Source: Thermovibrio sp.
GTDB taxonomy: Bacteria > Aquificota > Aquificia > Desulfurobacteriales > Desulfurobacteriaceae
Assembly: GCA_015490195.1 (NCBI GenBank)
Contig: WFYG01000008.1
Coordinates: forward strand, 62,001-126,000
DNA: 64,000 nt
Direction of reading: 5' to 3'
A model generated the notes under the pieces. The model saw only the letters and a list, made by a program, of their open reading frames with translations, ran no database searches and was not told the origin of the DNA. Numbering within the stretch: position 1 is the first letter of the stretch; every line of letters begins with the position of its first letter. Made by a program: the position numbers and the translations under genes. This document shows, piece after piece, positions 32,828 through 61,408 of the stretch.

Positions 32828-32914
32828 GCCCGGGTGGCGGAATTGGCAGACGCGCAGGACTCAGGATCCTGTGGGCTCACGCCCGTGCGGGTTCAAATCC
32901 CGCCCCGGGCACCA
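32828..32914 (+). tRNA. tRNA-Leu (anticodon CAG), likely prophage attachment gene
   Basis: An 87-nt class II tRNA. Acceptor arms GCCCGGG/CCCGGGC, discriminator A and encoded CCA (32912-32914). The anticodon loop CTCAGGA gives CAG, reading CUG. A long variable arm (GTGGGCTCACGCCCGT region) and the T-arm GTTCAAATC are intact. Prophage genes begin about 70 bp downstream, so its 3' end is the natural attB/attL candidate; the partner copy must lie beyond the window. Confidence 0.96.
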
Positions 32915-32983
32915 TGAAAATCAAAAAATTTCCTACCTTATCTAATTCCCGCAAATTGAATTTGTGCCCAAAATGTGCCCTCC

Positions 32984-33040: not shown

Positions 33041-33673
33041 GTGTCTGAGATAGGAAAAAGGTTGAAGAAGCTACGGGAGAAAAAGGGAATAACAAGAATG
33101 CAGTTAGCTAAGGAGCTGGTAGAAAAAGGGCTCCTCAATTTTGAGTCTCCTGAATCTCTCAATCAGTATCTCTACCTGATTGAAAAAGGAAGAAGAAAAC
33201 CTAAGGACGAAACTCTTAAGCCGATAGCAGAATACTTTGGTGTTCCTCTCCAGTGGCTTAAAGGGGAAATCATCTACGTGCCGATAATTGGAGAGACTAA
33301 GGCAGGTAAGTTCGGAGGGTATATTCAGGAAAAGGCGGAAGAACTTTTTCCTCTTCCGGCTGGGATTATCTCTATTCCGGAACCTGAGGAAAGAACGTTT
33401 TTCTTAAGGGTAGAGGGAAACAGTATGTATCCTGAGTTTGAGCCCGGAGACCTGGTTCACCTTGCAGATTCCTCTTTTTACCCTCCTAAGAATGGAGATG
33501 AGGTTGTAGTCATAAAGGACGGTGAAGCTACTTTAAAAAAGTTCTACTACGAGGATGGAAAAGTTAAACTTGTTCCGGTAAATGGAGACTATGAGCCAAT
33601 AGAGCTTGGAGATGAAGAGCTTGGAGAGGTTGCCGTTTTTAAGGTTATAGGCGTTTACAGGAAGAAACGTTGA
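33041..33673 (+). CDS. LexA/CI-like prophage repressor with S24 autoprotease domain
   Basis: A 210-residue protein. The N-terminal XRE-type helix-turn-helix (IGKRLKKLREKKGITRMQLAKEL) is followed by a linker and an S24 peptidase domain. A probable Ala-Gly self-cleavage site lies in GETKAGKFGG, the nucleophile Ser in VEGNSMYPEFEPGD, and the general-base Lys in EATLKKFYY. It should keep the prophage silent until RecA-stimulated cleavage after DNA damage. GTG start with RBS GGAGGA. Its own promoter and the next one share an operator-like element. Confidence 0.88.
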   Translation: MSEIGKRLKKLREKKGITRMQLAKELVEKGLLNFESPESLNQYLYLIEKGRRKPKDETLKPIAEYFGVPLQWLKGEIIYVPIIGETKAGKFGGYIQEKAEELFPLPAGIISIPEPEERTFFLRVEGNSMYPEFEPGDLVHLADSSFYPPKNGDEVVVIKDGEATLKKFYYEDGKVKLVPVNGDYEPIELGDEELGEVAVFKVIGVYRKKR

Positions 33674-35328: not shown

Positions 35329-35721
35329 ATGATTGATAAAGAAACAGCAGAAGTTCTTAATTCTATGTTTCCTAATAGAGGAACTTTCAAAGGAACTTTT
35401 TACAGTAAAACTTATCTACGTTGATATGTGCGGAGATTTAATAGCTGGAATTATTTTAGGACAAATAGCATACTGGTATTCTTCAAATACTTCTACAACA
35501 AAGCTTAGGATTTTAAAAGAAGGCAAACTTTGGCTTGTAAAGCGTAGAGAAGACTGGGGAATGAGTGCAGGATAACTCCAAAGCAGGTTGATAGAGCATT
35601 AAAAATCCTATGAGAAAAGGGATTTATAGAAGTAAAGAGATTCAAATTTGAAGGAACTCCCACTTTACATATCAGATTAACAACAAAATTCGTAGAAGAA
35701 TTTAAAAGGAGGATAAAATGA
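35329..35721 (+). pseudogene. Decayed phage replication-initiation gene (helix-turn-helix type)
   Basis: ATG 35329 with RBS AAGGAGG starts MIDKETAEVLNSMF and stops after 31 codons. The coding sense then continues in other frames: YVDMCGDLIAGIILGQIAYW and KLWLVKRREDW, then ITPKQVDRALKIL, a TGA, and EKGFIEVKRFKFEGTPTLHI to TGA 35719-35721. At least two frame changes plus an in-frame stop. The pieces match the order of an N-terminal phage replication (O-like) domain that selects HTH reading (TPKQVDRALKIL). A related intact N-terminus follows immediately, so this looks like a redundant, dying paralogue. Confidence 0.75.
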
Positions 35722-36221
35722 TGACAAAGACAGATAGAATTCTTCAAGCTATGCTTAAGCTTAACCTTGAAGGTAATATTATCCCTCATACATGGTTTAA
35801 AACTCTGGTTAAAAAAACTGAAAAAGGAAAAATCGTTCCTCATATACATGCAATTCTATTGCTTTCGGAAATAGTCTACTGGTGGAGACCAAGTCTTGAG
35901 AGAGATGAAATCTCCGGTAAAATTGTTGGAATAAGGAAAAAATTCAAAGATGAAGCTCCTCAGATTTCCTATCAACAGCTATCCGAACGCTTTGGCATGT
36001 CAAAGCGTCAGGTAAAGATGGCTATGGACTTTCTGGAAGAGGTTGGGGTTATTAAAAGAGAATTTAGAACGGTGAGGACTTCTAATGGAAAAATACCAAA
36101 TGTTCTTTTTATATGGGTAGATGCTGAAGCTCTTATAGAGGTAACAATCCTACAGAAATTTGTAGGATATCCCATAAAAAAATTAACGGTGAATCTACAA
36201 AAATTTGTAAGACAAATATAG
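35718..36221 (+). CDS. Phage replication-initiation-like protein, N-terminal part (frameshifted)
   Basis: A 167-residue product. The segment VPHIHAILLLSEIVYWWRPS and the HTH-like ISYQQLSERFGMSKRQVKMA match N-terminal domains of phage replication proteins that later recruit a DnaC-like loader, here encoded at 37382. After about residue 143 it has the repeat LQKFVGYP...LQKFVRQI, then stops. The -1 frame stays open across this end and continues into the next ORF with the typical ETTTENTTDITERD linker. The two were almost certainly one gene. The start overlaps the pseudogene stop (ATGA). Confidence 0.7.
   Translation: MMTKTDRILQAMLKLNLEGNIIPHTWFKTLVKKTEKGKIVPHIHAILLLSEIVYWWRPSLERDEISGKIVGIRKKFKDEAPQISYQQLSERFGMSKRQVKMAMDFLEEVGVIKREFRTVRTSNGKIPNVLFIWVDAEALIEVTILQKFVGYPIKKLTVNLQKFVRQI
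36146..36218 (+). repeat. Related TACA...TGTA inverted repeats and A7 run inside the replication gene
   Basis: TCCTACA-GAAATT-TGTAGGA (perfect 7+7) lies at about 36148-36167, and CTACAAAAATTTGTAAG at about 36195-36211 is a near copy. Between them is the heptamer AAAAAAA (36176-36182), in frame as A AAA AAA. The repeats could be replication-origin iterons, as origins in phage O genes are; the heptamer is a classic -1 slippage site. Confidence 0.4.
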
Positions 36222-36292: not shown

Positions 36293-36742
36293 TTGGAACC
36301 TCCTAAAGAAACTAATCTTGAAAAGAGAGGGCAGGCTGGCGGCGAGCCGTTTGACGCCGTCAAAGAACGCCAGCCTGAAACTTCCGCAAACAGATTGCCT
36401 AAACAATTATACATCTCCCCCCACGCCAAACAAATAGTAAACGCCTTTAAAGACCAGTTCCTAACTAAATTCGGCATTCCGCCAACGATAACCACAAAAG
36501 CCGTTCAGGAGCTTGAAGCAGTCCTCTCAAGGCTTTCCGACACTGAGAAGTTTGCCTTTGTTGAGAGGGCTGCAGGAGCCATAGAGAGATACCTGAAAAG
36601 TGATGAACCTTTCCTCAAAAAGGCTGGTTACTCCTTTCAGGTGTTCGTCTCTACTATGCAGAAATACATGCTTGAAGAGAAAAAGGAAGAAAAACTGAAG
36701 TCTGAACGCAAGGACGGAATTATTGAGGAAATGGATCTATGA
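36293..36742 (+). CDS. Phage replication-initiation-like protein, C-terminal part (frameshifted)
   Basis: A 149-residue product if started at TTG 36293. The same frame is open back to about 36130 and encodes an ETTTENTTDITERDIYRE linker, the usual connector in phage replication proteins. The body (KQIVNAFKDQFLTKFGIPP; TEKFAFVERAAGAIERYL) resembles the C-terminal helical domain of such proteins. A weak RBS-like AAGGA precedes the TTG. It is either a gene broken by a 1-nt indel or the second half of a recoded protein. The stop overlaps the DpdA-like gene. Confidence 0.55.
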   Translation: MEPPKETNLEKRGQAGGEPFDAVKERQPETSANRLPKQLYISPHAKQIVNAFKDQFLTKFGIPPTITTKAVQELEAVLSRLSDTEKFAFVERAAGAIERYLKSDEPFLKKAGYSFQVFVSTMQKYMLEEKKEEKLKSERKDGIIEEMDL

Positions 36743-37392
36743 GGGTTTACATAGGAGAGTGCAGAGGGGAAAAGTTCAAAGAGGCTATGGCATTAGGTTT
36801 TGGAATCTGTATATCTCCACAGACCTTTAGAACCCCTAAATCGCTTCCCAACTTCTTCTTCATAGATAACGGAGCCTTTTACAAGTGGAAGAGGCAGGAG
36901 AAATTCTCAGATTGGGAGTTCAGGAGCTTTTTGAGGAAAGTCCTTGAATCTTACCCTTTCCTCCCCGACTTTGTAGTTATCCCGGACGTAGTTGCCGACT
37001 CAAAAGCCACTGTGGAGTCTTTCCTGAAGTGGTATCCTGAGCTAAGGCGATTAATTAGCATTGATAGATTGGCTTTTGTCGTTCAGGACGGAATGGAGAG
37101 AGAGGAAGTGGTGGAGCTCCTCTCTAAATACCCTGTTGGTTACCTCTTTGTAGGCGGAAGCCTTGAGTGGAAACTCCTGACTGGGAGAATGTGGGTAGAA
37201 GTGGCAAGGGAGCTCTCCATAAAGTGCCACATCGGTAGAGTTGGAACTCCCAGGAGAGTAACCTGGGCAAAAGTAATAGGTGCAGACAGCATAGACAGCT
37301 CTCTGCCTCTCTTTTCAAAAGATAAATGGAAACGTTTCGTCAGAGCCGTTACTCAGGAGGTTCTCTTTTCAGGAGGAGAGTATGTTGGGTAA
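36739..37392 (+). CDS. DpdA-like 7-deazaguanine DNA ribosyltransferase (TGT family)
   Basis: A 217-residue phage protein with the block order of short phage DpdA proteins: IDNGAFYKW (42-50), PDFVVIPDVV (76-85), VVQDGM (114-119), FVGGSLEWK (137-145), HIGRVGTPRR (164-173) and GADSIDSS (181-188). These correspond to the substrate pocket of tRNA-guanine transglycosylases. DpdA swaps guanine in DNA for a 7-deazaguanine such as preQ0, which shields DNA from host restriction. No preQ0 synthesis gene is seen nearby, so host supply would be needed. It overlaps both neighbours slightly. Confidence 0.7.
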   Translation: MRVYIGECRGEKFKEAMALGFGICISPQTFRTPKSLPNFFFIDNGAFYKWKRQEKFSDWEFRSFLRKVLESYPFLPDFVVIPDVVADSKATVESFLKWYPELRRLISIDRLAFVVQDGMEREEVVELLSKYPVGYLFVGGSLEWKLLTGRMWVEVARELSIKCHIGRVGTPRRVTWAKVIGADSIDSSLPLFSKDKWKRFVRAVTQEVLFSGGEYVG

Positions 37393-38095
37393 GAAGCCGG
37401 TTTCTGTGGAAGAAGTGGAGAAGTATGAGCTTCAACTAAGGCTTATTACGTTCAGGAGGAAGCTTGAGATTGCAAGGCTTGAGGAGTTTGACTTTGAGGA
37501 AACGTTCAGAGAGTTTAAGAGGAAAACAGAGAAAGAGAGAACAAGGGCAATGGACGTTATAGACAGCTGGATGAGGTCGGGAAAGAGAGTTCTCGTTCTC
37601 TCCTCTCCGCCAGGAACGGGAAAAACCTTTGCAGCCGCCCTCTGGCTCTACTGTCTGTGGAAAAGAGCCTGGAGGAAAAACCTGAAGTGGACGTTTTACT
37701 TCTTTCAGGAAAAAGAGCTGTTTGGAGCCTCATCTCTATCAGAGGAAGAAAGGAGAGAAATAATTCAGGATGCCCGACAAGCAACCTTTTTGGTAGTTGA
37801 TGATTTTGGTCAGGTCAAGCCGAGAGGAGAGTATGAAGAAGCCAATATGAGGCTCTACTACGAAGACCTGATAGACTGGAGGAGAAAACTCAAGAAGTGC
37901 GAAGGCACAGTTCCAAGGTTGATTCTAACCACAAACTTGGAGATAGAGAGGATAAAGGAACTTCCCTACCTATCCAACAGGTTCTGGTCCAGAATAAAGG
38001 GAATTGCAGAGTATAAGAGAATCGGAGATAGAGACTATAGGGAGCTGGGTTTCCCGGACTTCCTGCCGTCAAGGGTCAAAATTGGTAAAGTTTAA
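37382..38095 (+). CDS. DnaC-like AAA+ helicase loader
   Basis: A 237-residue ATPase. Walker A is SSPPGTGKTFAAALW, Walker B FLVVDDFGQ, sensor 1 RLILTTNLE, and the arginine-finger region LSNRFWSRIKG. It fits the DnaC/DnaI/IstB group, which loads the replicative helicase. Its position after the replication-initiation genes supports this; no phage helicase is visible, so the host DnaB is the likely partner. RBS AGGAGGAG precedes the ATG. Confidence 0.82.
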   Translation: MLGKKPVSVEEVEKYELQLRLITFRRKLEIARLEEFDFEETFREFKRKTEKERTRAMDVIDSWMRSGKRVLVLSSPPGTGKTFAAALWLYCLWKRAWRKNLKWTFYFFQEKELFGASSLSEEERREIIQDARQATFLVVDDFGQVKPRGEYEEANMRLYYEDLIDWRRKLKKCEGTVPRLILTTNLEIERIKELPYLSNRFWSRIKGIAEYKRIGDRDYRELGFPDFLPSRVKIGKV

Positions 38096-45733: not shown

Positions 45734-45931
45734 ATGGCTGGCTTGTGCACTCTAATGGCATTATTAACAATAGTTGCCTGTATCTACACAGCTTTTTGCC
45801 ATGCGGGTGAGAGAGAAAGAAGAACAGAAGTTCCAAGGGAGTGCAGCAGGCTGCACAGACCCGTTAAGGGAGGGGAGCTCCCCCACTGGAACGAGGTTCC
45901 AGAAATACCGCCGATCTACATAAAGGTATGA
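45734..45931 (+). CDS. Small phage protein with one TM helix, 65 aa
   Basis: ATG overlaps the previous stop (TAAATG), with RBS GAGAGGGG. The N-terminal hydrophobic helix AGLCTLMALLTIVACIYTAF is followed by a hydrophilic tail rich in Arg, Glu and Pro. Its stop overlaps the terminase ATG (TATGA). The position between the terminase genes is unusual. It could be a holin-type or membrane accessory protein, but nothing proves it. Confidence 0.5.
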   Translation: MAGLCTLMALLTIVACIYTAFCHAGERERRTEVPRECSRLHRPVKGGELPHWNEVPEIPPIYIKV

Positions 45932-47787
45932 AAGACCTTGTTCAGGCTGTTAACCAGATACAGAAGTCTGGACCATCTGAGATTGAAGAAGTTGTAGAGA
46001 GGTTCAATCTCTCTCCTGAAGCGATTGACCTGCTCATAGAAATCCTGAAAGAAATTCAAAAATACGGCTACTCGCCCCTACTTGACCAGATACGCTACGC
46101 TGACTACAGGTTTAAACCCGTTTCCATCAGAGAGTTTGTCATCTCCCCCTACTACCTCAACAAGGCAAAGTATATCCGTCCGAAGCTCCTCAAAGAGCTT
46201 GAGAAATTTTTCAGCGGCGACTACATCATAGCCCTGCTTACAGGCTCAATAGGCTGGGGGAAAACAACCTTTGGCATCATAGCCATGGCTTACATCTTCT
46301 ACAGGCTCTTTATTCTCAAAAACCCGCAGGAGTTTTACGGCTTAGATCCATCCACAGAAATTGCTCTCGTCAACTTTTCCGTTAACCTGAAGACCGCCCT
46401 CACATCCTTTTTCAACAGGCTCAAAAACGACCTTTTGGCAAGTCCGTTCTTCAAGCACTTTATCTTAGAGGGAGAGATAGAGGTAAAAAAGGAGGAGCTC
46501 CGCTCAAACAGCAACATAATTCTCCAGCCACTTCCAATAAGCAACGAAGCTATTTCCTTAAACGTCTTCTCAGCAGTGATTGACGAAGCCAACTCCTTAG
46601 GACAGAAGAAAAGGGGCAACGAGGTTTACGACATTGCAGAGGAGCTCTTTGACTCCCTCTACAGACGCCTTGAGTCAAGGTTTCAGAGGAACGGGAAAGT
46701 TCCGGGAAAGCTCATCGTCCTCTCATCTGCAAAATACCCTGAAGACTTCACGGAGAGGATGATAAAGGAGTTTAAAGGCAATCCACTTGCCTACATCCGC
46801 CGATACGCCATCTACGACGTTAAGAGCGGCTACGAGAACTCTAAAAGGTTTAGAGTTTGTCTTGGAAGCCTCTCACAGCCGCCAAGGATAATTGACAGCG
46901 AGAAAGACTGTGCCGACTGCTTTATCGCCAAAGGGAAAACCTACCAGAACTGCGGTTTTGAACAGATACTTGTTCCTGAGGAGTTCAGGTTCTCGTTTGA
47001 AAGGAACATAGAGAAAGCCATTAGAGACATAGCAGGAAGACCTGTCCTAACAACAGCTCCGTTCTTCCACAACAGGGAAGCCATACTCAGCTGCATAGAC
47101 CCTGAAAAGAGACATCCGTTCAGCAGGGATGTCTCTGTTGAGCTTGAAGACATCCAGATAGACTACGGGAAAATGAACCTTGACAAAAGTCTGAAACGCT
47201 ACATCCACATAGACCTGGGCGTAACCGGAGACGCAACCGGTATAGCAATGGTCCACTTTGCAGGCTTTAAGAAAGTTAAAAGAGTTCTTCCAGACGGCAG
47301 TGAAAGGTATGAGGAGCTCCCAGTTGCCGAAGTTGACTTTGTCTTGAGAGTCCTGCCCAAATCGGAGATTCCGATATCCAGGATAAGGGAGTTCATCTAC
47401 GCAGTAGTTGAGAAAAACGGACTCTACGTCAGGAAAATTACTTACGACCAGTTCCAGAGCTGGGAGTCCATTCAGCAGTTTAAACAGAGGGGATACAGTG
47501 CCGAAAGGCTCTCGGTTGACGCCTCTTTAGAGCCATACATGAGCCTGAAAGAGGCGTTCTTTGACAGGAGAGTCATCCTCTACCGATACGAACCTCTACT
47601 GCAGGAGCTCTTTGCTTTAGAATTTGACGGCGCCAGAGTTGACCACCCGCCAGACGGCAGTAAAGACGTAGCAGACGCCCTCTGCGGAGCAGTCTACAGC
47701 TGCTTTACAGACAATCAAATTTCAAAAGTCATAGCTCCCAGCGTAGGGGAGCACGAAGAAAACGACGAAGAAGAATGGTGGTGGTAG
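45928..47787 (+). CDS. Terminase large subunit
   Basis: A 619-residue packaging motor. Walker A is GSIGWGKTTFG, Walker B VFSAVIDEANSL, and the C-terminal RNase H-like nuclease has YIHIDLGVTGDATGIAMVHF, VEKNGLYVRKITYDQFQSW and DGSKDVADALCGAVYS. It pumps and cuts concatemeric DNA. A Cys cluster CADCFIAKGKTYQNC mid-protein could bind metal. Start overlaps the small TM gene. Confidence 0.9.
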   Translation: MKDLVQAVNQIQKSGPSEIEEVVERFNLSPEAIDLLIEILKEIQKYGYSPLLDQIRYADYRFKPVSIREFVISPYYLNKAKYIRPKLLKELEKFFSGDYIIALLTGSIGWGKTTFGIIAMAYIFYRLFILKNPQEFYGLDPSTEIALVNFSVNLKTALTSFFNRLKNDLLASPFFKHFILEGEIEVKKEELRSNSNIILQPLPISNEAISLNVFSAVIDEANSLGQKKRGNEVYDIAEELFDSLYRRLESRFQRNGKVPGKLIVLSSAKYPEDFTERMIKEFKGNPLAYIRRYAIYDVKSGYENSKRFRVCLGSLSQPPRIIDSEKDCADCFIAKGKTYQNCGFEQILVPEEFRFSFERNIEKAIRDIAGRPVLTTAPFFHNREAILSCIDPEKRHPFSRDVSVELEDIQIDYGKMNLDKSLKRYIHIDLGVTGDATGIAMVHFAGFKKVKRVLPDGSERYEELPVAEVDFVLRVLPKSEIPISRIREFIYAVVEKNGLYVRKITYDQFQSWESIQQFKQRGYSAERLSVDASLEPYMSLKEAFFDRRVILYRYEPLLQELFALEFDGARVDHPPDGSKDVADALCGAVYSCFTDNQISKVIAPSVGEHEENDEEEWWW

Positions 47788-47792
47788 TAAAT

Positions 47793-48323
47793 TCAAAATA
47801 TCCACTGTTTACAACAACTACCATTTTCAGGATATACTCTTAAAATTCCTGCCTTTCCTTGTGATAACGCCAGAATCTCTTTTAAAAACTCTTCATCACT
47901 TTTATCCAATTTTGTTTTAATAAACTTGTCAAAAACAAGTAGCAAAACAAAAGCATTGGGGCAATTTTGCAAATGTTTACAGGCGTATAATAACTGAACA
48001 ATTCCCTCATCATAAGACCAGTTTTTATTTTGTCTGTTAAGTTTAAGTTCAATATACAGCTGAAACGTTTCAGAAAGATCCAAACGTAAATCTAATCTCT
48101 TTGGAACTTTAAACTTTGTTCCTATTTTTGGTTCTTTTGATTCTATTTTTAAACCTGGATATTGCTTCTGCAACCTTTCTAATATTTTTTTTAGGCGCTT
48201 TCTAACAGTCGGTTCCCTGAGATAAGTTCCGTTTCCTAAGAACCACTCCGCAAAGTTTTCTCCTTCTGCCAGTAAGGAATCCACAGCTGTTTCCATTATT
48301 TTCTTGAACGTAGCATAGTACAT
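47793..48323 (-). CDS. Minus-strand cargo gene, possible PD-(D/E)XK nuclease
   Basis: A 176-residue protein on the opposite strand to the late operon, in visibly AT-rich DNA. ATG 48323 follows AGGGAGGG; an ATG five codons earlier includes this RBS. DLRLDLSETFQLYIELKLN gives a D...E-x-K arrangement preceded by a helix, as in PD-(D/E)XK nucleases. A C-terminal CC pair follows. It has the hallmarks of a moron with lysogenic expression, possibly restriction or exclusion. The fold call is tentative. Confidence 0.6.
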   Translation of the reverse strand: MYYATFKKIMETAVDSLLAEGENFAEWFLGNGTYLREPTVRKRLKKILERLQKQYPGLKIESKEPKIGTKFKVPKRLDLRLDLSETFQLYIELKLNRQNKNWSYDEGIVQLLYACKHLQNCPNAFVLLLVFDKFIKTKLDKSDEEFLKEILALSQGKAGILRVYPENGSCCKQWIF

Positions 48324-48376
48324 AGTCCCTCCCTGCATCCAGCTGAATATTTATTCAAAGTATAACCTTTAGAGAG

Positions 48377-48405
48377 TTGATAATCCTAATAATTTGCATT
48401 ACACT
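48377..48405 (+). promoter_or_regulatory. Palindrome-spacer promoter of the portal operon
   Basis: TTGATA (48377-48382), spacer ATCCTAATAATTTGCAT (17 bp), TACACT (48400-48405). Only the right palindrome half (ATTTGCAT) is well conserved. No 5' hairpin follows. It lies in the divergent gap beside the minus-strand cargo gene. Confidence 0.6.
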
Positions 48406-48442
48406 TACGAAGAATAGTGAATATTATGAGGTCCAAACTGCC

Positions 48443-49156
48443 ATGAAAGTGTCCATTGACCTGCCGGAAGATGTTTTTAAGAAGATCGTAATGATGCAGG
48501 GAACGGTTAAGGAAGTTGTTGAGAATATTGTTATAGAGGCTATAAAAGGGAATAAAGGTAGCTGGCGGTTAAAGAGGCTGAAGGAGGAGAACAAAAGGCT
48601 GAGGGAGAAACTTCAGAAAGTAGAGGAAGAAAAGGAGAGGCTTGAGTCTCTGTTTTCTGAAAAGGCAGTTTCGGCAGAGAGAGTGATTGAGGAGCTCCGC
48701 CGTGAAAACCAGAACCTAAAAGAACGGCTGAAAGAATCTGAAAAGGTAGCTAAAACCGAAATAGACTACAGCCTCATCGGCATAGCGGTCAGGGAAAGCG
48801 TTAAGAGGGCGTTCCACGACATTCTTAAAGAGTATGAAACTGCAGGTTTTAAGTTAAAAGTCTCTTTTGTTGAAAGATGCAGACAGGTTGTAGTTGCGGT
48901 TAACAAATACCTTGACTCGGCAGACGAACCTGTAAGACTTGCTATGCACGTTCAGAACGGAGAGCTGGTTCTCTGCGAACCGAAAGTAACGGCAACTTTC
49001 CTTGACTACTACTCCATACACCCCAACAAACTCAAAAGTATTGGCTCCCTGATAAGAGAGCTTGACCCTGAAATAAAAGTGGAGGTTGTTGAGTCAGACA
49101 TCTCTAAAGGTTACATTTTGCTAAAATCTAATGCAAATGGATTGCGTGGAGAATAG
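48443..49156 (+). CDS. Coiled-coil phage protein, 237 aa
   Basis: ATG 48443 is used; the upstream in-frame reading lies in the promoter region. A short strand-helix (MKVSIDLPEDVFKKIVMM) is followed by a long coiled coil (KRLKEENKRLREKLQKVEEE through KERLKESEK) and a globular alpha/beta C-terminus. It precedes the portal gene and may be a head or packaging accessory. No family recognised. Its last codons contain an operator-like palindrome (49131-49147). Confidence 0.65.
   Translation: MKVSIDLPEDVFKKIVMMQGTVKEVVENIVIEAIKGNKGSWRLKRLKEENKRLREKLQKVEEEKERLESLFSEKAVSAERVIEELRRENQNLKERLKESEKVAKTEIDYSLIGIAVRESVKRAFHDILKEYETAGFKLKVSFVERCRQVVVAVNKYLDSADEPVRLAMHVQNGELVLCEPKVTATFLDYYSIHPNKLKSIGSLIRELDPEIKVEVVESDISKGYILLKSNANGLRGE
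49131..49147. promoter_or_regulatory. 17-bp palindrome directly before the portal RBS
   Basis: ATGCAAATGGATTGCGT, without usable -35/-10 hexamers, abutting GGAG and 12 bp before the portal ATG. If bound by the prophage regulator it would act as a roadblock rather than a promoter site. Confidence 0.4.
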
Positions 49157-49158
49157 AA

Positions 49159-50445
49159 ATGTCCATCTTTGAGCTTTTCAGGAAAAAAGAGGAAAAGATA
49201 AAAGAGCCGGAACCTAAAGGCTACAGCTACGATGCCACTTCTCCGCTGGGAGCTCTCCTAAAGCTATCTACAGGCAGACTTGAAAGGTATGAAGAGTATG
49301 AGAAGATGATGGAGATGCCCTACATAGCAGCTGCTGCAAAAGTTTATGCAGACGAGTGCTGCCAGAGAAACCCAGATACAGGCAAGATATTTGCATACTC
49401 ATCAGAAAACCAGAAGGTTGAGAGGTTAATCGGGGAGCTCCTTAACAGAATAAAGATTGAAGAAAAGTGCCCGTTCATAGCCAAGGAGCTCTTTAAACTC
49501 GGAGACTCTTTCTGGGAAGTTGTTTCAGAAGATGGTAAGGGGGTTTTGGGCTTCTACCACAGACCCGCAAGAACCGTTGAGAGGGAGGAAGACAACAAAG
49601 GCAGGCTTGAAAAGTTTGTCCAGAGGGTAGCCGGCAGCAACACAGAGTTTATGCCAGACGAAATGGTCCACTTCAGGCTCCTTGAAGACGTCAAGTTCTA
49701 CCCCTACGGCTATCCCATCCTTGAAGACGCCCGCCGAATTTACAGACAGTTAGCCCTCATGGAAGATGCCGTTGTTATCTACAGGCTCACGAGAGCTCCC
49801 AACAGGTGGGTTTTCTACATAGACGTAGGCAACATGCCACCGGAGAAAGCAGAAACCTTCATAGAGAAGTTGAAGAAGAAGTTTAAGAAGAAAAGGCTCA
49901 TAGACCCGAAAACGGGAAAGTTCGTAGCAAAGCCGGACTTTCTCGCTGCTGACGAGGACTTCTACTTCCCGGTCTTTGAAGGTGGCAGAGGCTCCAGAGT
50001 TGAGAGCTTAGCCGGGGCTTCCAACATAGGCGACATTGCAGACATTGAGTATTTCCAGAAGATGCTCTTTGCCGCACTGAAAATTCCCAAAGCCTACCTT
50101 GCCAACGAAGAAGGGTTCTCTACCAGGGCAACCCTTTCTTCCATCTCCATCCAGTTCAGCCGTTCCGTTAAAAGCCTCCAGAACGCCATTGTTGACGGCG
50201 TCAAAAAACTCATAGAGATACACCTCAAAAAGAACGGCATCACAGATGCTAACTTCACAATCACAATGTATTCTCCCAACTACATAGAAGAAGAACTGAG
50301 AATGGAATCAATGCTCAAGAGGGTTCAGGTTGCACAGGAGCTCCTCTCGCTGACAGACAAAGAGGGAAATCCCATAGTAAGCGCCAATTACATCCTTAAA
50401 ACCGTTTTGAAGGTAAACGATGATGAACTACACAGCAAGGATTAA
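49159..50445 (+). CDS. Portal protein (T4 gp20-like)
   Basis: A 428-residue portal. The segment MEDAVVIYRLTRAPNRWVFY followed by DVGNMPPEKAETFIEKLKKK is the most recognisable block of T4 gp20 homologues, then LAADEDFYFPVF and FSTRATLSSISIQFSRSV. It forms the dodecameric DNA gateway. It is shorter than T4 gp20 (524). It points to a T4-type head module in a temperate phage. Confidence 0.88.
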   Translation: MSIFELFRKKEEKIKEPEPKGYSYDATSPLGALLKLSTGRLERYEEYEKMMEMPYIAAAAKVYADECCQRNPDTGKIFAYSSENQKVERLIGELLNRIKIEEKCPFIAKELFKLGDSFWEVVSEDGKGVLGFYHRPARTVEREEDNKGRLEKFVQRVAGSNTEFMPDEMVHFRLLEDVKFYPYGYPILEDARRIYRQLALMEDAVVIYRLTRAPNRWVFYIDVGNMPPEKAETFIEKLKKKFKKKRLIDPKTGKFVAKPDFLAADEDFYFPVFEGGRGSRVESLAGASNIGDIADIEYFQKMLFAALKIPKAYLANEEGFSTRATLSSISIQFSRSVKSLQNAIVDGVKKLIEIHLKKNGITDANFTITMYSPNYIEEELRMESMLKRVQVAQELLSLTDKEGNPIVSANYILKTVLKVNDDELHSKD

Positions 50446-50632
50446 AAAGTATTCCGGGGTATTGGTTGTGGAAGTTCTAAACTCCTGCGGAGATGCTCTT
50501 ATAGTCCTATGCAAGATATTTGCTTTGTTAGTGGTCATTCTCCTTTTGCCTATCCTCGCCTTTATAAATATGGAGGAGATAGAAGATGGGGAACGACAGA
50601 TGGCGATCTCTAATGGCAGAGAGGGAAGTTGA
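50420..50632 (+). CDS. Small single-TM protein overlapping the portal end
   Basis: A 70-residue frame starting ATGATG with AAGG upstream. It overlaps the portal by 26 bp. The helix ALIVLCKIFALLVVILLLPILAF is strongly hydrophobic, and the C-terminal tail is acidic. The TM segment and position favour a real gene, such as a lysis or membrane accessory. Confidence 0.45.
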   Translation: MMNYTARIKKYSGVLVVEVLNSCGDALIVLCKIFALLVVILLLPILAFINMEEIEDGERQMAISNGREGS

Positions 50633-50756
50633 CTGCGAAGACTTTGAGCCGAGGAACCTGTGTGAAAGGTGCAGCAGAGATTGTAAGAACCCGGTTCCAG
50701 ACGCCAGAGTTGTTGACTGCGAAAAGTTTAAACCGAAAAGGAGAAAGAGATGTTAA
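50586..50756 (+). CDS. Cys-rich small phage protein, 56 aa
   Basis: ATG 50586 with GGAGGAG upstream; stop TAA 50754-50756 overlaps the next ATG. The sequence has an internal repeat (VDCEDFEP and VDCEKFKP) flanking CERCSRDC, giving a CxxCxxxC cluster that may bind zinc. Basic C-terminus KRRKRC. It overlaps the small TM gene in another frame. No family recognised. Confidence 0.5.
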   Translation: MGNDRWRSLMAEREVDCEDFEPRNLCERCSRDCKNPVPDARVVDCEKFKPKRRKRC

Positions 50757-51163
50757 CGGCAGAGTTTAAAGACATAGACCAGAACCGCTACTTCATAAGC
50801 GTAAACGGCTACTGCTTCTTAGAGCTCAACTGCGACACTAAAAAGAGGGTAAGGAGAATTGCCAGGATACTGGAAGACGAAATAATCAAGAAGGAAAACG
50901 GCAGAGGAATTCACAGGAAAACAATGAGTTTCGGCTTCCCATATGAGCTCCTGAAAAAGGCGGAGCTCCGCGGCGTTAAAAGGGTTGTAGTTATCTTCAA
51001 CGGCTCAGTATTTACAACCGACATTGAGAACTTCTTTAAGAAGGGCTTTGTCCTCTACTTTAAGAACAGAGCAGAGAGGAGAATCTACCTGCCGATGAGC
51101 TGTTTTGAGGAAATTAAAGACGCAAGGTATTTGCAGTATTACCTGATGGCAATAGGAGGGTAA
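50750..51163 (+). CDS. Hypothetical phage protein, 137 aa
   Basis: Alternating strands and helices (YFISVNGYCFLELNCDTKKR; VKRVVVIFNGSVFTTDIENFF), ending LPMSCFEEIKDARYLQYYL. RBS AAGGAG with the start in the previous gene's stop. No motif recognised. It stands in the late operon before dUTPase. Confidence 0.55.
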   Translation: MLTAEFKDIDQNRYFISVNGYCFLELNCDTKKRVRRIARILEDEIIKKENGRGIHRKTMSFGFPYELLKKAELRGVKRVVVIFNGSVFTTDIENFFKKGFVLYFKNRAERRIYLPMSCFEEIKDARYLQYYLMAIGG

Positions 51164-51165
51164 GA

Positions 51166-51363
51166 GTGATTGGAAAAGAGCTTCTGGAGAAAGCCTTAGA
51201 GATATCACAGGAAACAGAGAAACTGACGGAGCTCCTTGGCAAATACCTGAAAAGTGAAGATAGGGAGCTCTACCACAAAATTCGGGAGCTCAGCAGAAAG
51301 ATATCAACAGACCTTGAGACGTGGAGATACCACTTCAGGAAAACCTTTAAAAGGAGCAGGTAG
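51166..51363 (+). CDS. Hypothetical helical phage protein, 65 aa
   Basis: GTG start with GGAGGG upstream. The protein is almost entirely helical and charged (LEKALEISQETEKLTELLGKY; LYHKIRELSRKISTDLE). It ends exactly before the dUTPase ATG. No function can be assigned. Confidence 0.55.
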   Translation: MIGKELLEKALEISQETEKLTELLGKYLKSEDRELYHKIRELSRKISTDLETWRYHFRKTFKRSR

Positions 51364-51933
51364 ATGGAGACAAGGGAAATACCGGAAAACCTGGAAGATT
51401 TTGAGAAGTGGACAAAGACCATTAAAAACACCAGCATTGTAATAGTAGCCAGATCCCCTGAGCTCTTACCCGTTGTTAAGTATAACTCCAACGGAATAGA
51501 CTGCCGTGCCGACCTTTCAGAAGGGATCCTTTTCAGGGATAAGAACAACAGAGAGTATGTAAGGAAAGGGTTAAAAGAATACCTCTTTACCTACGAGAGA
51601 GCTCTTGTATCGCTGGGAATAAGGGTATATATGCCTCAAGACTGCTATATGGACGTAAGACCAAGGAGCGGCTTAGCCTGGAAATATGGAATAACGGTTC
51701 TGAACAGCCCGGGATTTGTTGACAACGACTACAGGGACACTGTGAAGGCACTTCTCATAAACCTTTCCCTTGAGGAGTTTGAGATAAACCACGGGGATAG
51801 AATCTGCCAGGTTGTCTTCAGCAGAGAATATCCCGTCTACTTGGGAGTAAGCGCTGAAATCTTTGGAAAGTTTGAGGAGTTCTTCCCGTCTGGAAGGGGA
51901 AAGAGAGGATTCGGCAGTTCGGGGGTGAAATGA
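51364..51933 (+). CDS. dut: dUTPase / dCTP deaminase-family protein
   Basis: A 189-residue trimeric dUTPase-type fold. Motifs in order: NGIDCRADL (motif 1), RPRSGLAWK (2), GFVDNDYRDTVKALLINL (3), GDRICQVVF (4) and RGKRGFGSSG (5, the Gly-rich P-loop-like tail). The catalytic Asp of motif 3 is present. It removes dUTP, limiting uracil in phage DNA. It is long for a dUTPase and has a helical N-terminal extension. Its placement inside the head gene cluster is unusual. Stop overlaps the next gene. Confidence 0.85.
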   Translation: METREIPENLEDFEKWTKTIKNTSIVIVARSPELLPVVKYNSNGIDCRADLSEGILFRDKNNREYVRKGLKEYLFTYERALVSLGIRVYMPQDCYMDVRPRSGLAWKYGITVLNSPGFVDNDYRDTVKALLINLSLEEFEINHGDRICQVVFSREYPVYLGVSAEIFGKFEEFFPSGRGKRGFGSSGVK

Positions 51934-52706
51934 AAGAGGACTTTCCACTTCCCGTAGTGATAGTTGAAGGGAAAACGTTTGGAACGAGAAGGGCAAGGAG
52001 ACCGGAGAGAGATGCAGAGAGCTCCCTCTGGTTTCAGGCTCTCAGAAGTGAATACTACAGGGAGAAAAAGAGAGCTACAGACAGGGCTTTTAAAAAATAC
52101 AAAAGGCTCAAAGAAAAGTTCAGAAACGAGGGGTGGGAGCTCATAGAAAACTTCCTCAAGGGAGAACTGAAAGCCGGTCAGCTCAGGTTCAGACTGAAAA
52201 AACTCTTTAAAGAGACCTACTTCAGAGCGTACAGCCTGGGAATGGAAGCCTCTGGAGTTCCATTTGTAAAGCCTGAAAAGACAGACCTGAGCTGGTTAGA
52301 CGGCGCAAGGAAGCACGAGTATCAGTATCTCAACAGCTTCCTCAGAGACATTGAAACAAAGTCCGGAAAAATGGACTACAAACGGCGCTGGGAGATGTAT
52401 GTTAATACTCTTGACTTTGTTTACCGGGCTGGAAAAGTAGAGGCTCTACCTGCTCAATACGTTATAGACTGGATAATGACCGATGCAGAGCACTGTGAGA
52501 GCTGTCTTTTCCTTGAAAGGCACTCTCCCTATACGAAGTGGACTCTTCCCTGCATCCCCAGAGACGGAACCACAAAGTGCCTCAGCAACTGCAGGTGCTA
52601 CCTGAGATTAAGACCCCCAAACAGCCGCAAAGAGTGGCTTCAGGCAAACAGTGTTAATAAGAACTGGATGTTAAGGGAGCTCAAAAGGATAAAGAAAGGG
52701 AGGTAG
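51930..52706 (+). CDS. Probable minor head / head morphogenesis protein
   Basis: A 258-residue basic protein. The C-terminal part has MTDAEHCESCLFLERHSPYT and CIPRDGTTKCLSNCRCYLRLR, the Cys/Pro pattern of the Mu gpF/SPP1 gp7 minor-head family. It follows the portal by a few genes, as such proteins do. N-terminal helices are highly charged. Family assignment is tentative. Confidence 0.6.
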   Translation: MKEDFPLPVVIVEGKTFGTRRARRPERDAESSLWFQALRSEYYREKKRATDRAFKKYKRLKEKFRNEGWELIENFLKGELKAGQLRFRLKKLFKETYFRAYSLGMEASGVPFVKPEKTDLSWLDGARKHEYQYLNSFLRDIETKSGKMDYKRRWEMYVNTLDFVYRAGKVEALPAQYVIDWIMTDAEHCESCLFLERHSPYTKWTLPCIPRDGTTKCLSNCRCYLRLRPPNSRKEWLQANSVNKNWMLRELKRIKKGR

Positions 52707-52707
52707 G

Positions 52708-52941
52708 ATGTCTGACAGGAGCGGAATTGTGAACATGGAGGAAATCAACGCTATCTCTGCTTTTATAGTAGCTCTAAAACAGCAGGGATTCAGGGGGAAC
52801 GTGGTAATAGGAATGAAAGACAGGAATATGGTTGTAAAGCTTGAGACCTTTGTAAAGGTTGGAGACCTGAAAGAGATGATTAGAAAGCCTCTTGACGAGG
52901 TTATTCTCCAGGGAAATGGTATAATTAAATCAAACGATTGA
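52708..52941 (+). CDS. Hypothetical phage protein, 77 aa
   Basis: RBS GGGAGG. Begins MSDRSGIVNMEEINAISAFI and contains strand GNVVIGMKDRNMVVKLET. No TM or motif. The stop lies within an 18-bp element (52925-52942) that matches the repressor operator in reverse. Confidence 0.5.
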   Translation: MSDRSGIVNMEEINAISAFIVALKQQGFRGNVVIGMKDRNMVVKLETFVKVGDLKEMIRKPLDEVILQGNGIIKSND

Positions 52942-52942
52942 A
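52925..52942 (-). promoter_or_regulatory. Reverse copy of the repressor-promoter element
   Basis: TTAAATCAAACGATTGAA is the exact reverse complement of 32992-33009. On the minus strand flanking hexamers are weak (TTCCAC, TAATTA). It sits before a two-TM gene; it may be a distant operator. Confidence 0.5.
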
Positions 52943-52951
52943 TGGTGGAAT

Positions 52952-53182
52952 ATGAAATCGGTTGAGGCAAGAATAGACTTCTACCGTGACCTGATAAAAA
53001 TCTTTGCTGCCTACATTTTCGCAATAGGTGGTGGAATTGTAGGTCTTCTGTTTAAAGAGAGCTCCCCCTTAACCGTATTCCTGATTATTGCAGGGCTACT
53101 TGCAGAGCTAACTTTATTAACAGCAGTTGTTAAGCTATATTTGAAAATAGAAAGACTTATAAAGGAGCTCCACGATGAGTAG
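52952..53182 (+). CDS. Two-TM small membrane protein, holin-like
   Basis: A 76-residue protein with two helices (IFAAYIFAIGGGIVGLLF; PLTVFLIIAGLLAELTLLTAV) and a charged cytoplasmic tail ending ELHDE. The size and topology fit class II holins, but no neighbouring endolysin is recognised. Overlaps the next tiny gene by 8 bp. Confidence 0.55.
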   Translation: MKSVEARIDFYRDLIKIFAAYIFAIGGGIVGLLFKESSPLTVFLIIAGLLAELTLLTAVVKLYLKIERLIKELHDE

Positions 53183-53276
53183 TTTTGAGATATTCGGTAT
53201 AGTTGTTGTAGCTTTGATAACAGTTTTCTTCCTCTATTTTGTCTTTACTGTAATACGTAAAGTAGAGGAAGCTTAA
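53175..53276 (+). CDS. Tiny single-TM protein, 33 aa
   Basis: ATG 53175 with RBS AAGGAGCTC, overlapping the previous gene. Protein: short SSFEIFG head, then the helix IVVVALITVFFLYFVFTVI and a KVEEA tail. Two consecutive small membrane genes suggest a holin/antiholin-type pair or membrane accessory, without proof. Confidence 0.45.
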   Translation: MSSFEIFGIVVVALITVFFLYFVFTVIRKVEEA

Positions 53277-53294
53277 ACAGTTGAGGTGCTTACA

Positions 53295-53603
53295 ATGGCA
53301 AAAGAAATTATTAAGATTACTATTGAAGACAAACTTGAAATTCATGATAATGTAAAAGGGAAAGTAAAGGAAAAAGGGCAAAAGAAACCTATCTATGAAT
53401 TTAAGGTTGGTGATAGTTATCACCACAAAACGGGCAAATGGAATCACAGAAGAATGGAAATTGATAGAAAAAACGACAAATACAGGGAAGTAGTCATTGA
53501 TAAAGAGACAGGAGAAATAATTCACTCTTGTGAAGAACCGTTATCTCAACACAAAGGTCACGGAAGCGCTAAATTTAAAAAGACTGGCAAAGGAAAAAAG
53601 TAG
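53295..53603 (+). CDS. Conserved-looking hypothetical protein, 102 aa, AT-rich
   Basis: ATG 53295 with GAGGTG upstream. KVGDSYHHKTGKWNHRRMEI then YREVVIDKETGEIIHSCEEP and LSQHKGHGSAK. I recall the last block (CEEPLSxHxGHGSAK) from widespread bacterial hypothetical proteins of unknown function. It is AT-richer than neighbours and sits just before a hairpin promoter, so looks like inserted cargo. Confidence 0.6.
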   Translation: MAKEIIKITIEDKLEIHDNVKGKVKEKGQKKPIYEFKVGDSYHHKTGKWNHRRMEIDRKNDKYREVVIDKETGEIIHSCEEPLSQHKGHGSAKFKKTGKGKK

Positions 53604-53684
53604 ATATTGCTAATTTAGGTTATTAGGTCTGGCTTTTATCTACTTTGCTCTGCCTCAAAAAGCTGAGAAGAGGCGCAGCCATCC

Positions 53685-53713
53685 TTGACCTTGCGAAAGT
53701 TTTGCGTTAACAT
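53685..53713 (+). promoter_or_regulatory. Palindrome-spacer promoter of the capsid operon
   Basis: TTGACC (53685-53690), spacer TTGCGAAAGTTTTGCGT (17 bp), TAACAT (53708-53713). The palindrome is a variant (GCGAAA/TTTTGC). A long hairpin follows after 7 nt. Confidence 0.7.
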
Positions 53714-53720
53714 AACTCTG

Positions 53721-53759
53721 AAGGGCTAAGACTTTCGGTCGGTCTTAGCCCTTATTTTA
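53721..53759 (+). terminator. 5'-terminal attenuator-like hairpin, copy 2
   Basis: AAGGGCTAAGAC (53721-53732), loop TTTCGGTCG, GTCTTAGCCCTT (53742-53753): a perfect 12-bp stem, followed by ATTTTATTT. Predicted transcription start equals the first stem base. Loop and 3' arm resemble copy 3. Confidence 0.75.
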
Positions 53760-53775
53760 TTTCTGGGGGATGCAG

Positions 53776-54612
53776 ATGGATGTTCTTCAGAAACTCCTCA
53801 AAGAGAGCTTTGAGTCAAAGGCAGAAGAAATCAGGCAGAGAATTTCTGAGTCCCTTGACGGCGTCAAAATCCTCGGAACGTTCAAGGATGGAGCAATTAT
53901 TTTGCATGAAGGGAAACACTACAGAGCCTACCTGAGAGAGAATGGAGTTGAGCTTAAACCGATTGAGGAAACTGCAGTTACTCCGGAAGAAGTTGTTGAA
54001 GCCTTTCTATCGGGGAAACCTCTAAAGGGAAAAATAGAAAAGCTCATAGAGAGTGCAGCAAGGAGCTCCCCCAAAACCTCACTCCTCAAACCGGTGGTTG
54101 AGAAACTAAACAGCCTATACGGAAAAGAAAAAGTAGATAGGGAGCTCCTTGAAACCATCAGAGTTGGCGTAAGGAAGATGAGGCACAGAGTAGTTCCCGC
54201 TACCGTCAGGGCAAAGAGAAGAGCCTACTACCGCAGAAACAGATCAAAGATACTAAGGGCAGTGAAGCAGTGGGCAAAGAGGCACAAGGCTGCTCTCAAA
54301 CAGTATAGAAAGAAGTTCAGACAGAGGTTCGGGGAGTCTGAAAACGCAACCCAATTGCCTACAATAGACGAACTCCTTGAAAGGATAAACGCTCTTCTTG
54401 AGATATTAGGAGAGCTTGAAGACGTCAGCGAGATAAAGTCAGCGATTGCAGAACTTGAATTCCTCTCAGACTTCCTTGAAGGACTGAAAGAGAGCGACGT
54501 TGACGAGGAAGAAGTTGAAGCTGCCATTGAGAACGTAGATGCCCTCTTAACAGACTTAGAGGAGCTCTTCTTCGGAGAAGATGGAGGAGATGATGAAACA
54601 GATAATAGTTGA
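53776..54612 (+). CDS. Hypothetical head-region phage protein, 278 aa
   Basis: ATG 53776 is preferred over ATG 53770 because GGGGGA (53765-53770) serves as RBS. The middle is very basic (RAKRRAYYRRNRSKILRAVK; KKFRQRFGE), while the C-terminal third is acidic and helical (LLERINALLEILGELEDVSE; ending GEDGGDDETDNS). Position before the protease-scaffold gene suggests a prohead core component. No family recognised. Confidence 0.6.
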   Translation: MDVLQKLLKESFESKAEEIRQRISESLDGVKILGTFKDGAIILHEGKHYRAYLRENGVELKPIEETAVTPEEVVEAFLSGKPLKGKIEKLIESAARSSPKTSLLKPVVEKLNSLYGKEKVDRELLETIRVGVRKMRHRVVPATVRAKRRAYYRRNRSKILRAVKQWAKRHKAALKQYRKKFRQRFGESENATQLPTIDELLERINALLEILGELEDVSEIKSAIAELEFLSDFLEGLKESDVDEEEVEAAIENVDALLTDLEELFFGEDGGDDETDNS

Positions 54613-55729: not shown

Positions 55730-55732
55730 GAG

Positions 55733-57172: not shown

Positions 57173-57180
57173 GGGGAACT

Positions 57181-57540
57181 ATGTGGGTTAAGGTAACGCC
57201 TGGAGTCATAGCGGGTTATTTCAGGGGAAAGAGGATAAACGTTAAACAGGGAGATAGAGTTGAGGACGCCGGGCTGGTCAGCCTTTTTCCACGGGATTTC
57301 AGGGAGCTCTCCCTGGTAGTTCCCTCTTCCTCCTCCCCACAGGAGCCCTCCGGGGCTCCTCCCTTAACGAAAGAAGAACTTGAGAGGAAGAGTAAGAGGG
57401 AGCTCCTTGCCATAGCCAGAGAGCTGGGAATAGAGTCTGACAGCATGAAAAAAGATGAGCTCATCACAGCAATACTGGAGGCTGAAGATGTTCGTAAACG
57501 GGAAGACTCTAAAGAGCCTGCAGAAGAAATATCCGGCTAA
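57181..57540 (+). CDS. Hypothetical head protein with HeH/Rho-N-like C-terminus, 119 aa
   Basis: Begins MWVKVTPGVIAGYFRGKRIN, a beta-rich head-tail-connector style N-terminus. A Ser/Pro linker leads to LTKEELERKSKRELLAIARE and LGIESDSMKKDELITAILE, the two-helix Rho-N/HeH motif found in phage head proteins. Overlaps the next gene by 53 bp. Confidence 0.6.
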   Translation: MWVKVTPGVIAGYFRGKRINVKQGDRVEDAGLVSLFPRDFRELSLVVPSSSSPQEPSGAPPLTKEELERKSKRELLAIARELGIESDSMKKDELITAILEAEDVRKREDSKEPAEEISG

Positions 57541-57802
57541 CGCACTTCAGAAACTCCTCAAACTTCCGAAAGACGTTAGCCTTGACCAGCTCAGCAGTGC
57601 CGTAAGAAGTGCGTTCAGGAAAGCCGTAGGAAATGAAGACATCTGGATTAGCGAGATATACAAAGACCACGTAATAGCCCACTCTTCCAGTGATGCCAAA
57701 TACTACAAAATCCCATTTTCCATAGACGGAACGGACATCAAGTTTGACTTCTCCAGGAAAGTAGAGGTTGTAAGGTGCTGGAAAGAGGTAGAGAGTAAAT
57801 GA
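57488..57802 (+). CDS. Hypothetical phage neck/tail protein, 104 aa
   Basis: ATG 57488 with GGAGG (57477-57481 area) is preferred to an earlier GTG-type start. VNGKTLKSLQKKYPANALQK start; YYKIPFSIDGTDIKFDFSRK near the end. No recognised family. Ends overlapping the neck gene by 4 bp. Confidence 0.55.
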   Translation: MFVNGKTLKSLQKKYPANALQKLLKLPKDVSLDQLSSAVRSAFRKAVGNEDIWISEIYKDHVIAHSSSDAKYYKIPFSIDGTDIKFDFSRKVEVVRCWKEVESK

Positions 57803-58458: not shown

Positions 58459-58461
58459 GTT

Positions 58462-61353: not shown

Positions 61354-61379
61354 AACATGAAGTTTAATTTCTTTCCCTC

Positions 61380-61408
61380 TTTACTTAGCAAATGATTTGC
61401 GTTAAAAT
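61380..61408 (+). promoter_or_regulatory. Palindrome-spacer promoter of the tail operon
   Basis: TTTACT (61380-61385), spacer TAGCAAATGATTTGCGT (17 bp), TAAAAT (61403-61408). Palindrome core GCAAAT-G-ATTTGC is perfect. A hairpin follows after 7 nt. It lies next to the minus-strand membrane gene start. Confidence 0.75.

Follow-up and report, generated by a model that had tools for sequence, protein, structure and literature searches.

The closest described counterparts of the protein considered here are the DpdA enzymes of phages, the tRNA-guanine transglycosylases (TGT) of bacteria, and Cap10 of type IV CBASS. For phages that carry DpdA together with a preQ0 pathway, Hutinet et al. (2019; PMC6884629) report widely differing shares of modified guanines: about 28% in Rosebush, 32% in CAjan and 1.7% in Dp-1, and in nt-1 around 0.1% or below for any single base. 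The same paper groups phages that have DpdA and lack preQ0 genes separately; among such dpdA-only phages, it reports no modification in Orion DNA and dADG at about 0.02% of Gs in Salmonella phage 7-11. Pantoea phage MED16, which has only dpdA, is reported to contain dADG at about 0.13% of Gs, with minimal effect on the restriction enzymes tried (PMC8306585). Hutinet et al. also suggest that phages with preQ0 genes and no DpdA could raise Q in host tRNA (PMC6884629). Cap10 is described as binding a deazaguanylated protein N-terminus (PMC11996544); its TGT-family fold is used outside tRNA.

Here we examine a gene in a 64,000-nucleotide stretch of DNA (the window, at its full length of 64 kb) from Thermovibrio sp., a genus of the Desulfurobacteriaceae (Aquificota). 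A preliminary description, made from the letters alone, had read the gene as that of a prophage DpdA-like enzyme.

A Transglycosylase-Like Gene in a Prophage Replication Module

The prophage that carries the gene is about 47.5 kb long and is bounded by a 58-bp direct repeat of the tRNA-Leu(CAG) 3' end. Its right end lies outside the 64-kb window, and the ORF just inside the right repeat copy reads by eye as a putative tyrosine integrase. Terminase, portal, head protease, major head protein and tail sheath are all present and, with the tRNA-Leu repeat, bear out the prophage setting given in the preliminary description; the phage is of the contractile-tailed type. Coordinates are collected in Table 1.

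The gene at 36739-37392 is an intact ORF with an ATG start and a stop codon inside that span. The frame is complete, at 217 aa, and contains every sequence block quoted for it in the preliminary description. It overlaps the 149-aa ORF upstream and the gene for a DnaC-like helicase loader downstream, and a replication initiation protein is encoded nearby, which makes it part of the phage replication module. RecU and a sigma factor are encoded farther downstream.

Table 1. Features of the prophage and of the transglycosylase gene; positions are those of the window unless another frame of reference is given.
Feature	Position	Strand	Evidence or remark
Left attachment repeat, 58 bp, tRNA-Leu(CAG) 3' end	32858..32915	+	direct repeat
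Right attachment repeat (twin)	contig C8:142306-142363, beyond window		direct repeat
Prophage HTH/S24 repressor	33041..33673	+	Pfam Peptidase_S24 1.8e-21
Replication initiation protein, upstream	35718..36221	+	phrog_270 E 5e-15
Upstream ORF, 149 aa	36293..36742	+	no family matched; stop overlaps transglycosylase start (ATGA)
Short DpdA/TGT-like transglycosylase, 217 aa	36739..37392	+	phrog_15826, predicted structure, motifs
Block IDNGAFYKW	residues 42-50 of 217-aa protein		
Block PDFVVIPDVV	residues 76-85 of 217-aa protein		
Block VVQDGM	residues 114-119 of 217-aa protein		
Blocks FVGG and EWK	residues 137-140 and 143-145 of 217-aa protein		
Block HIGRVGTPRR	residues 164-173 of 217-aa protein		
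D43 of DNGAF	36865..36867	+	invariant in alignment A2; aligned with D of TDSGGF in host TGT; putative general base
D83 of IPDVV	36985..36987	+	invariant in A2; motif-only counterpart of TGT base-binding D; hhalign register differs
Q116 of VQDG	37084..37086	+	invariant in A2; aligned with Q of VQGG in host TGT
H164 of HIGRVG	37228..37230	+	invariant in A2; motif counterpart of H196 (VHGFG) in 9g DpdA
D186 of SIDSS	37294..37296	+	aligned with D of MFDCV in host TGT; like CDSSS of 9g DpdA; putative nucleophile
DnaC-like helicase loader, downstream	37382..38095	+	phrog_50 E 3.8e-13; start overlaps transglycosylase gene end
Structural region, terminase large subunit (45928) to tail sheath (61708-63183)	45928..63183	+	

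Several other prophage genes are recorded here in their own right. A RecT/Bet-like annealing protein is encoded at 34276-35229, with a match to the Mu GemA family in its C-terminal part (Pfam 6.7e-6). Two different ParB-like proteins occur in this one integrated prophage (40794-41843 and 44401-45204), as do a DUF488 protein (42545-42991) and a radical SAM protein (43075-44142; CX3CX2C by eye), with a terminator-like sequence, also seen by eye, between the genes of the latter two. We asked whether the two ParB-like genes, the radical SAM gene and DUF488 might form part of a modification cassette; this reading was dropped because, among 98 loci, one RecT-like and one weak ParB-like match were the only recurrences of prophage neighbors.

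Fold and Active Site

An AlphaFold model (AF2; 53 sequences) has a pLDDT of 94.4. When it was searched against the PDB with Foldseek, transaldolases and other TIM barrels ranked above TGT, and Cap10-CdnD with NDG (9ntn) was sixth (E 1.3e-4). After re-alignment with VIA, the 50 best rows listed all belonged to TGT, with Z from 15.2 to 15.7 and 205 to 210 aligned residues; the top one had Z 15.7 over 208 residues. A good Z alone is common among barrels, since 980 of the 999 Foldseek chains re-aligned by VIA score Z of at least 8. Because only VIA put TGT first, the assignment leans also on sequence motifs and on the HMM link to DpdA described below. In a viral structure library, nine of the 30 matches at E<=0.001 were named queuine or queuosine ribosyltransferase, and an unnamed protein of phage nt-1 was at Foldseek rank 42 (E 8.8e-3).

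Alignment A2, which holds the window protein and 52 of the 53 viral cluster representatives (L084 was left out), has 13 columns that are invariant in all 53 sequences, including D43, D83, Q116, G139, G140, K145, H164, R167 and D186. An hhalign comparison with the host TGT (E 0.012) paired DNGAF with DSGGF, VQDG with VQGG, the GG loops, GRVGTP with MGVGTP, and SIDSS with MFDCV. The protein thus combines a TGT-type TIM barrel with invariant D43, D83, Q116 and D186, of which D43, Q116 and D186 are in register with TGT. We take these four residues to be the counterparts of D102, D156, Q203 and D280 of Z. mobilis TGT. The preliminary description had named a lack of the TGT active-site aspartates as evidence against its reading; D43, D83 and D186 are present throughout the alignment. 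There is also a conserved histidine, H164, at the position named as H196 in 9g DpdA by Hutinet et al. (PMC6884629), matched by motif and not by structural superposition. Apparent N-terminal extensions in four relatives (L066, L071, L104, L125) look by eye like wrong starts, and these were not counted as fusions.

A Short Family Distinct From Described DpdA

The best PHROGs family for the 217-aa protein is phrog_15826, listed as "unknown function" (E 4.6e-29), and the phage TGT/DpdA (queuine) family phrog_887 matches it at 1.8e-4 over 65 residues only. Pfam (no family at E<=0.1), NCBIfam and PADLOC, the last searched with the 217-aa protein alone, returned no family for it, and sequence searches of the PDB yielded no significant match (best E 0.65 and 0.12). 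By tblastn, 50 of 50,697 phage records match at E<=0.01, four of these over at least 80% of the query. A scan of IMG/VR with the single sequence found no relative; a scan with a 7-row alignment did, with 407 of the 446 stretches that match the peptide pattern encoding one. The resemblance is therefore not due to chance.

All six phage relatives tested belong to phrog_15826 (R6L, Sonali gp81, Phegasus gp54, Aoka gp40, Ssp-JY42, ReqiPine5 gp03). Sonali gp87 is a phrog_887 protein and adjoins that phage's own QueC, QueD, QueE and FolE genes. Several actinophage members of phrog_15826 already bear the annotation "DpdA-like tRNA-guanine transglycosylase," so the kind of enzyme is already known by annotation. 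In the parts of the literature that our search covered, we found no experimental account of the short family and no phrog_15826 member with a measured product; Cui et al. (2023, NAR; cited in PMC12783734) may describe the family.

Five members score 158 to 232 bits with an HMM of the family, seven DpdA-type proteins 11 to 33 bits, and the host TGT -1.9. The enzymes of phages 7-11 and BTP1 reach only 24 and 33 bits, so neither is a member of the short family. With an early 7-row alignment, hhalign paired the family with Sonali gp87 at E 2.7e-4 (probability 41%), and the comparison with 9g DpdA was not significant (E 0.15).

Motif comparisons agree with a placement beside DpdA. The seven DpdA-type proteins examined (9g, Sonali gp87 and D105 of phrog_887; CAjan, PenguinLover67, 7-11 and BTP1 by annotation) have in common with the window protein the D[SN]GAF motif and a DSS or DST nucleophile motif, and all seven, like it, lack the CxCxxC zinc motif. 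Phage DpdA genes may adjoin preQ0 genes, as may those of short-family relatives. The DpdA proteins belong to a different PHROG, however, and are longer (234 to 329 aa vs. 217 aa), and four of the seven (9g, Sonali gp87, D105, BTP1) have a WH or FH motif where the window protein has VQDG, a match made by motif and not by alignment. DpdA2 of phage nt-1 is described as lacking the H196 histidine, whose motif counterpart H164 the window protein has. Bacterial TGT (PF01702) shares with the window protein the fold (Z 15.7) and the order of the D, Q, GG and D active-site motifs, but the window protein has neither of the marks of a canonical tRNA TGT, a PF01702 match and the CxCxxC zinc site, and is shorter than the 365-aa host TGT. 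The phrog_15826 enzymes of actinophages (Phegasus gp54, Sonali gp81, Aoka gp40) are 29 to 32% identical to it and have the same invariant residues.

Judged by sequence, then, the 217-aa protein is homologous to the phrog_887 DpdA enzymes but belongs to a separate family outside the described DpdA, and is best regarded as a DpdA-side relative with the TGT-type glutamine and without the TGT zinc motif. The earlier statement that its blocks match phage DpdA is therefore correct for the TGT/DpdA-type fold and active site, but the protein is not a standard DpdA, being shorter, of another family, and equipped with VQDG.

Association of the Short Family With preQ0 Genes

To assess gene neighborhoods, the best 80 of the 407 IMG/VR relatives were kept, giving 53 clusters at 80% identity, and flanks of up to 6 kb a side, ending at contig ends, were searched for preQ0 genes with iterated HMMs. 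QueC, QueD, QueE, FolE or a YhhQ-type transporter is encoded in the flank of at least one member in 31 of the 53 viral clusters, and within 60 bp of the stop-to-stop open frame in 28. QueC was found in 11 clusters, QueD in 9, QueE in 7, YhhQ in 14 and FolE in 1; two clusters had only a PAPS-reductase-like gene, and in 20 no gene of the set was found. The gene caller identified both genes in 18 clusters, and in 16 of these they are immediate neighbors, compared to 2.8 expected by random placement. Against tblastn backgrounds among the 50,697 phage records, QueC (11/53 vs. 329) and YhhQ (14/53 vs. 36) stand out, a rough contrast since the backgrounds come from single queries and the cluster counts from other methods.

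Sample checks supported these assignments. The QueC of L054 and the Phegasus transporter passed the Pfam cut-off, as did nine of ten further proteins, the tenth being the L067 PAPS-reductase-like protein, without a Pfam match. In NCBIfam, the expected family was on top in 9 of 9, three of which passed the stricter cut-off.

We also searched 18 whole viral records of such clusters, which are fragmentary, for phrog_887, the sole DpdA family sought. Of the 15 with a preQ0 gene in their own flank, 14 have no separate phrog_887 DpdA, and L086 has a clear one; the records of L022, L038 and L079 represent clusters in which another member carries the preQ0 gene, and one of these other members, L023, has a DpdA as well. 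In six records, weak phrog_887 matches have coordinates that fall within the short gene. Read most simply, most of those preQ0-gene phages use the short enzyme as their transferase, and with a preQ0 gene or preQ0-type transporter close by in 31 of 53 clusters, the phrog_15826 family very probably handles 7-deazaguanines.

In three phages (Sonali, L005; L023; L086), the short enzyme coexists with a full DpdA and preQ0 genes. The short enzyme thus need not do the job of DpdA, and the two are probably not redundant there.

Host Pathway and the Branch of the Window Protein

Following the suggestion in the preliminary description to look for queC, queD and queE in the host, we found QueC (6.1e-76), QueD/PTPS (2.5e-32) and a QueE-like protein (4.4e-26) in the host genome, along with QueF (3e-32) and TGT (4e-164). 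Since QueC, QueD, the QueE-like protein and QueF are encoded, preQ0 and preQ1 should be available, and a DpdA-type function would have its precursor supply through the host. No preQ0 gene is present among the scanned genes of the window. The host also encodes a type I HsdR (8e-33). Thermovibrio grows at about 75°C; the host is indeed Thermovibrio-like, and "hyperthermophile phage," the term used earlier, is a loose one for such a genus.

The family's link to preQ0 genes is uneven across the tree, which was built without L026 (a 50-aa domain) and took 22 of the 48 genome-contig loci, with Burkholderiaceae making up 24 of the 26 left out. The branch of the window protein, weakly supported (82/77), has 13 rows, which include L015, L016, L019, L021, L044, L045, L051, L053, a copy from a genome of the host's own genus (G001), two Halorubrum copies and a fusion protein from another genus (G010, below). 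A preQ0 gene or transporter was found in none of the eight viral clusters on this branch, whereas 31 of the 45 other clusters have one (Fisher p 4e-4, with the branch picked once the tree had been seen), and none of the eight whole virus records of the branch has QueC. The thermophile prophage copy differs in this respect from the actinophage enzymes. Active-site residues are unchanged in the members of the branch that are in A2. The Halorubrum copies (L137, L146) sit on a very long stem.

Without preQ0 genes on its branch, this prophage would need host precursors. The preQ0 link holds for the family at large and was not seen on the window branch, where dependence on the host pathway or another function would both explain the absence. 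The short gene is sporadic, occurring in 3 of 61 genomes searched, this genome included, and its copies in three Desulfurobacteriaceae genomes have different gene settings. The genome-contig scan relied on a single peptide pattern, to which the FVGGSLEWK of the window protein does not conform, and may therefore have overlooked close relatives in genomes.

A PP-Loop Enzyme Beside Some Relatives

A second kind of partner recurs in the family. In G010, from another genus of Desulfurobacteriaceae, one open 595-aa frame (contig C1:159979-161766; L147 9480-11267, minus strand) joins an N-terminal PAPS-reductase-type PP-loop enzyme (Pfam 4.6e-25), for which the best PADLOC match is SspD (6e-24), to a C-terminal short-family DpdA-like domain. 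Burkholderiaceae loci from the genome scan have a PP-loop enzyme in the flank in 26 of 31 cases, and within 60 bp of the open frame in 23 of 31; in L115, the one tested, it is DndC-like (8e-45). Several Burkholderiaceae matches extend over two or more open frames, which suggests that some copies may be broken, and a Gp3-like recombination directionality factor in L115 hints at prophage origin. These loci may represent a prophage remnant that has been retained, or else a modification or defense cassette not described before. Paraburkholderia, Caballeronia and Burkholderia loci are often accompanied by SbcC-like and SbcD-like genes (by eye; Pfam just under the cut-off).

A PP-loop gene also lies in the flanks, 55 to 3448 bp away, of R6L, ReqiPine5, Aoka, L036, L054, L067, L082, L084 and L143, and the pairing of short enzyme and PP-loop gene is seen in phages of Erythrobacter and Rhodococcus as well as in Burkholderiaceae. 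PP-loop genes are frequent in phages (57 phage records match the PP-loop part of the G010 protein), so nearness alone is weak evidence; the G010 fusion and the Burkholderiaceae pairs are stronger. A PAPS-reductase-like partner was also considered for the window itself and was dropped, as a crude motif search there found no PP-loop motif.

A link between a short TGT-like enzyme and an SspD/DndC-like ATPase was not found in the literature searched; a search combining TGT, PAPS reductase and phage returned, by title, only a bacterial genome study. The nearest published parallel is Cap9/Cap10 deazaguanylation in CBASS (PMC11996544). It is conceivable, if doubtful, that phrog_15826 is a separate class of deazaguanine transferases whose partners are PP-loop ATPases of the SspD/DndC (phosphorothioation) type. 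Together they would produce a hybrid mark not described so far, for example a deazaguanine that undergoes further thiolation or amidation in situ, or a nucleobase linked to protein.

Proposed Function and Alternatives

From the computed fold, the conserved catalytic residues, the family's link to preQ0 genes and the host pathway, we infer what activity, target, level of modification and purpose the gene product might have, and we lean, with somewhat better than even confidence, toward DNA base exchange with a host-made 7-deazaguanine. The protein would belong to the TGT/DpdA superfamily as a minimal base-exchange enzyme with a single domain. If it works as TGT does, D186 would attack C1' of the target (deoxy)guanosine and guanine would be released; a 7-deazaguanine (preQ0, preQ1 or a related base) supplied by the queuosine pathway of the host would bind between D83, Q116 and the GG loop and then be joined to the sugar, with D43 as general base. 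The target would be phage DNA during replication. DNA is the likeliest target given the overlap with the replication module, the lack of the zinc motif as in the phage DpdAs examined, and a sequence nearer DpdA than TGT; tRNA or protein is a less likely one. The outcome would be sparse marks, perhaps in set sequence contexts, that blunt host restriction, for which the type I HsdR of the host is a candidate.

The claim that the gene implies 7-deazaguanine DNA goes too far in view of the dpdA-only precedents Orion, 7-11 and MED16. By analogy with them, the cautious expectation is that this prophage modifies DNA sparsely, if at all. Dense replacement of guanine appears unlikely, as does an effect on duplex stability, which the trace levels in those phages would hardly change.

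The same precedents are what favor a different account, in which the gene is a real DpdA relative but an orphan of little effect, with virion DNA unmodified or trace-modified in this host. The sporadic occurrence of the gene fits this as well, but the ORF is intact with its active-site residues kept, the copies in the three family genomes sit in different gene settings, and this host makes the precursors, unlike the host of Orion as described by Hutinet et al. (PMC6884629); we regard so idle a gene as rather improbable. It also seems unlikely that the protein is a minimal TGT acting on RNA, which would insert a 7-deazaguanine (preQ1, preQ0 or another) into tRNA or other RNA and so tune phage translation. 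The fold and base-binding residues are as in TGT, VQ.G motif included, and the suggestion of Hutinet et al. on Q in host tRNA offers a precedent for such an aim (PMC6884629), yet the zinc motif is absent, the protein falls about 150 aa short of the full TGT that the host already has, and the family HMM is nearer DpdA than TGT.

A role like that of Cap10, with a TGT-family protein handling protein-attached 7-deazaguanine and a PP-loop partner (QueC-like or SspD/DndC-like) doing the chemistry, would account for the sixth Foldseek rank of Cap10-CdnD and for the PP-loop enzyme fused to one relative and near others, and Cap9/Cap10 chemistry of this kind is published (PMC11996544). Cap10 stands in an operon with a CD-NTase and the QueC-like Cap9, however. 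Around the window gene, the neighbors scanned with Pfam and PHROGs are replication and phage genes with no CD-NTase or other CBASS gene among them, and the window showed no PP-loop motif. The protein has kept its catalytic residues, while Cap10 is described as remodelled (PMC11996544), and the QueC, QueD, QueE and YhhQ neighbors of relatives fit simple base supply, so that we hold a Cap10-like role to be very unlikely.

If the window protein exchanges bases in DNA as we propose, it would rank with the smallest base-exchange enzymes of the DpdA-like kind, and 7-deazaguanine chemistry would extend to the DNA of a thermophilic Aquificota phage. A heat-stable, single-domain DNA-guanine transglycosylase of 217 aa would be handy for structure work and for DNA labelling. 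The SspD/DndC-like partner of some relatives offers a testable two-enzyme system. For the family as a whole, an active enzyme would give a function to phrog_15826, which has hundreds of relatives in viral metagenomes.
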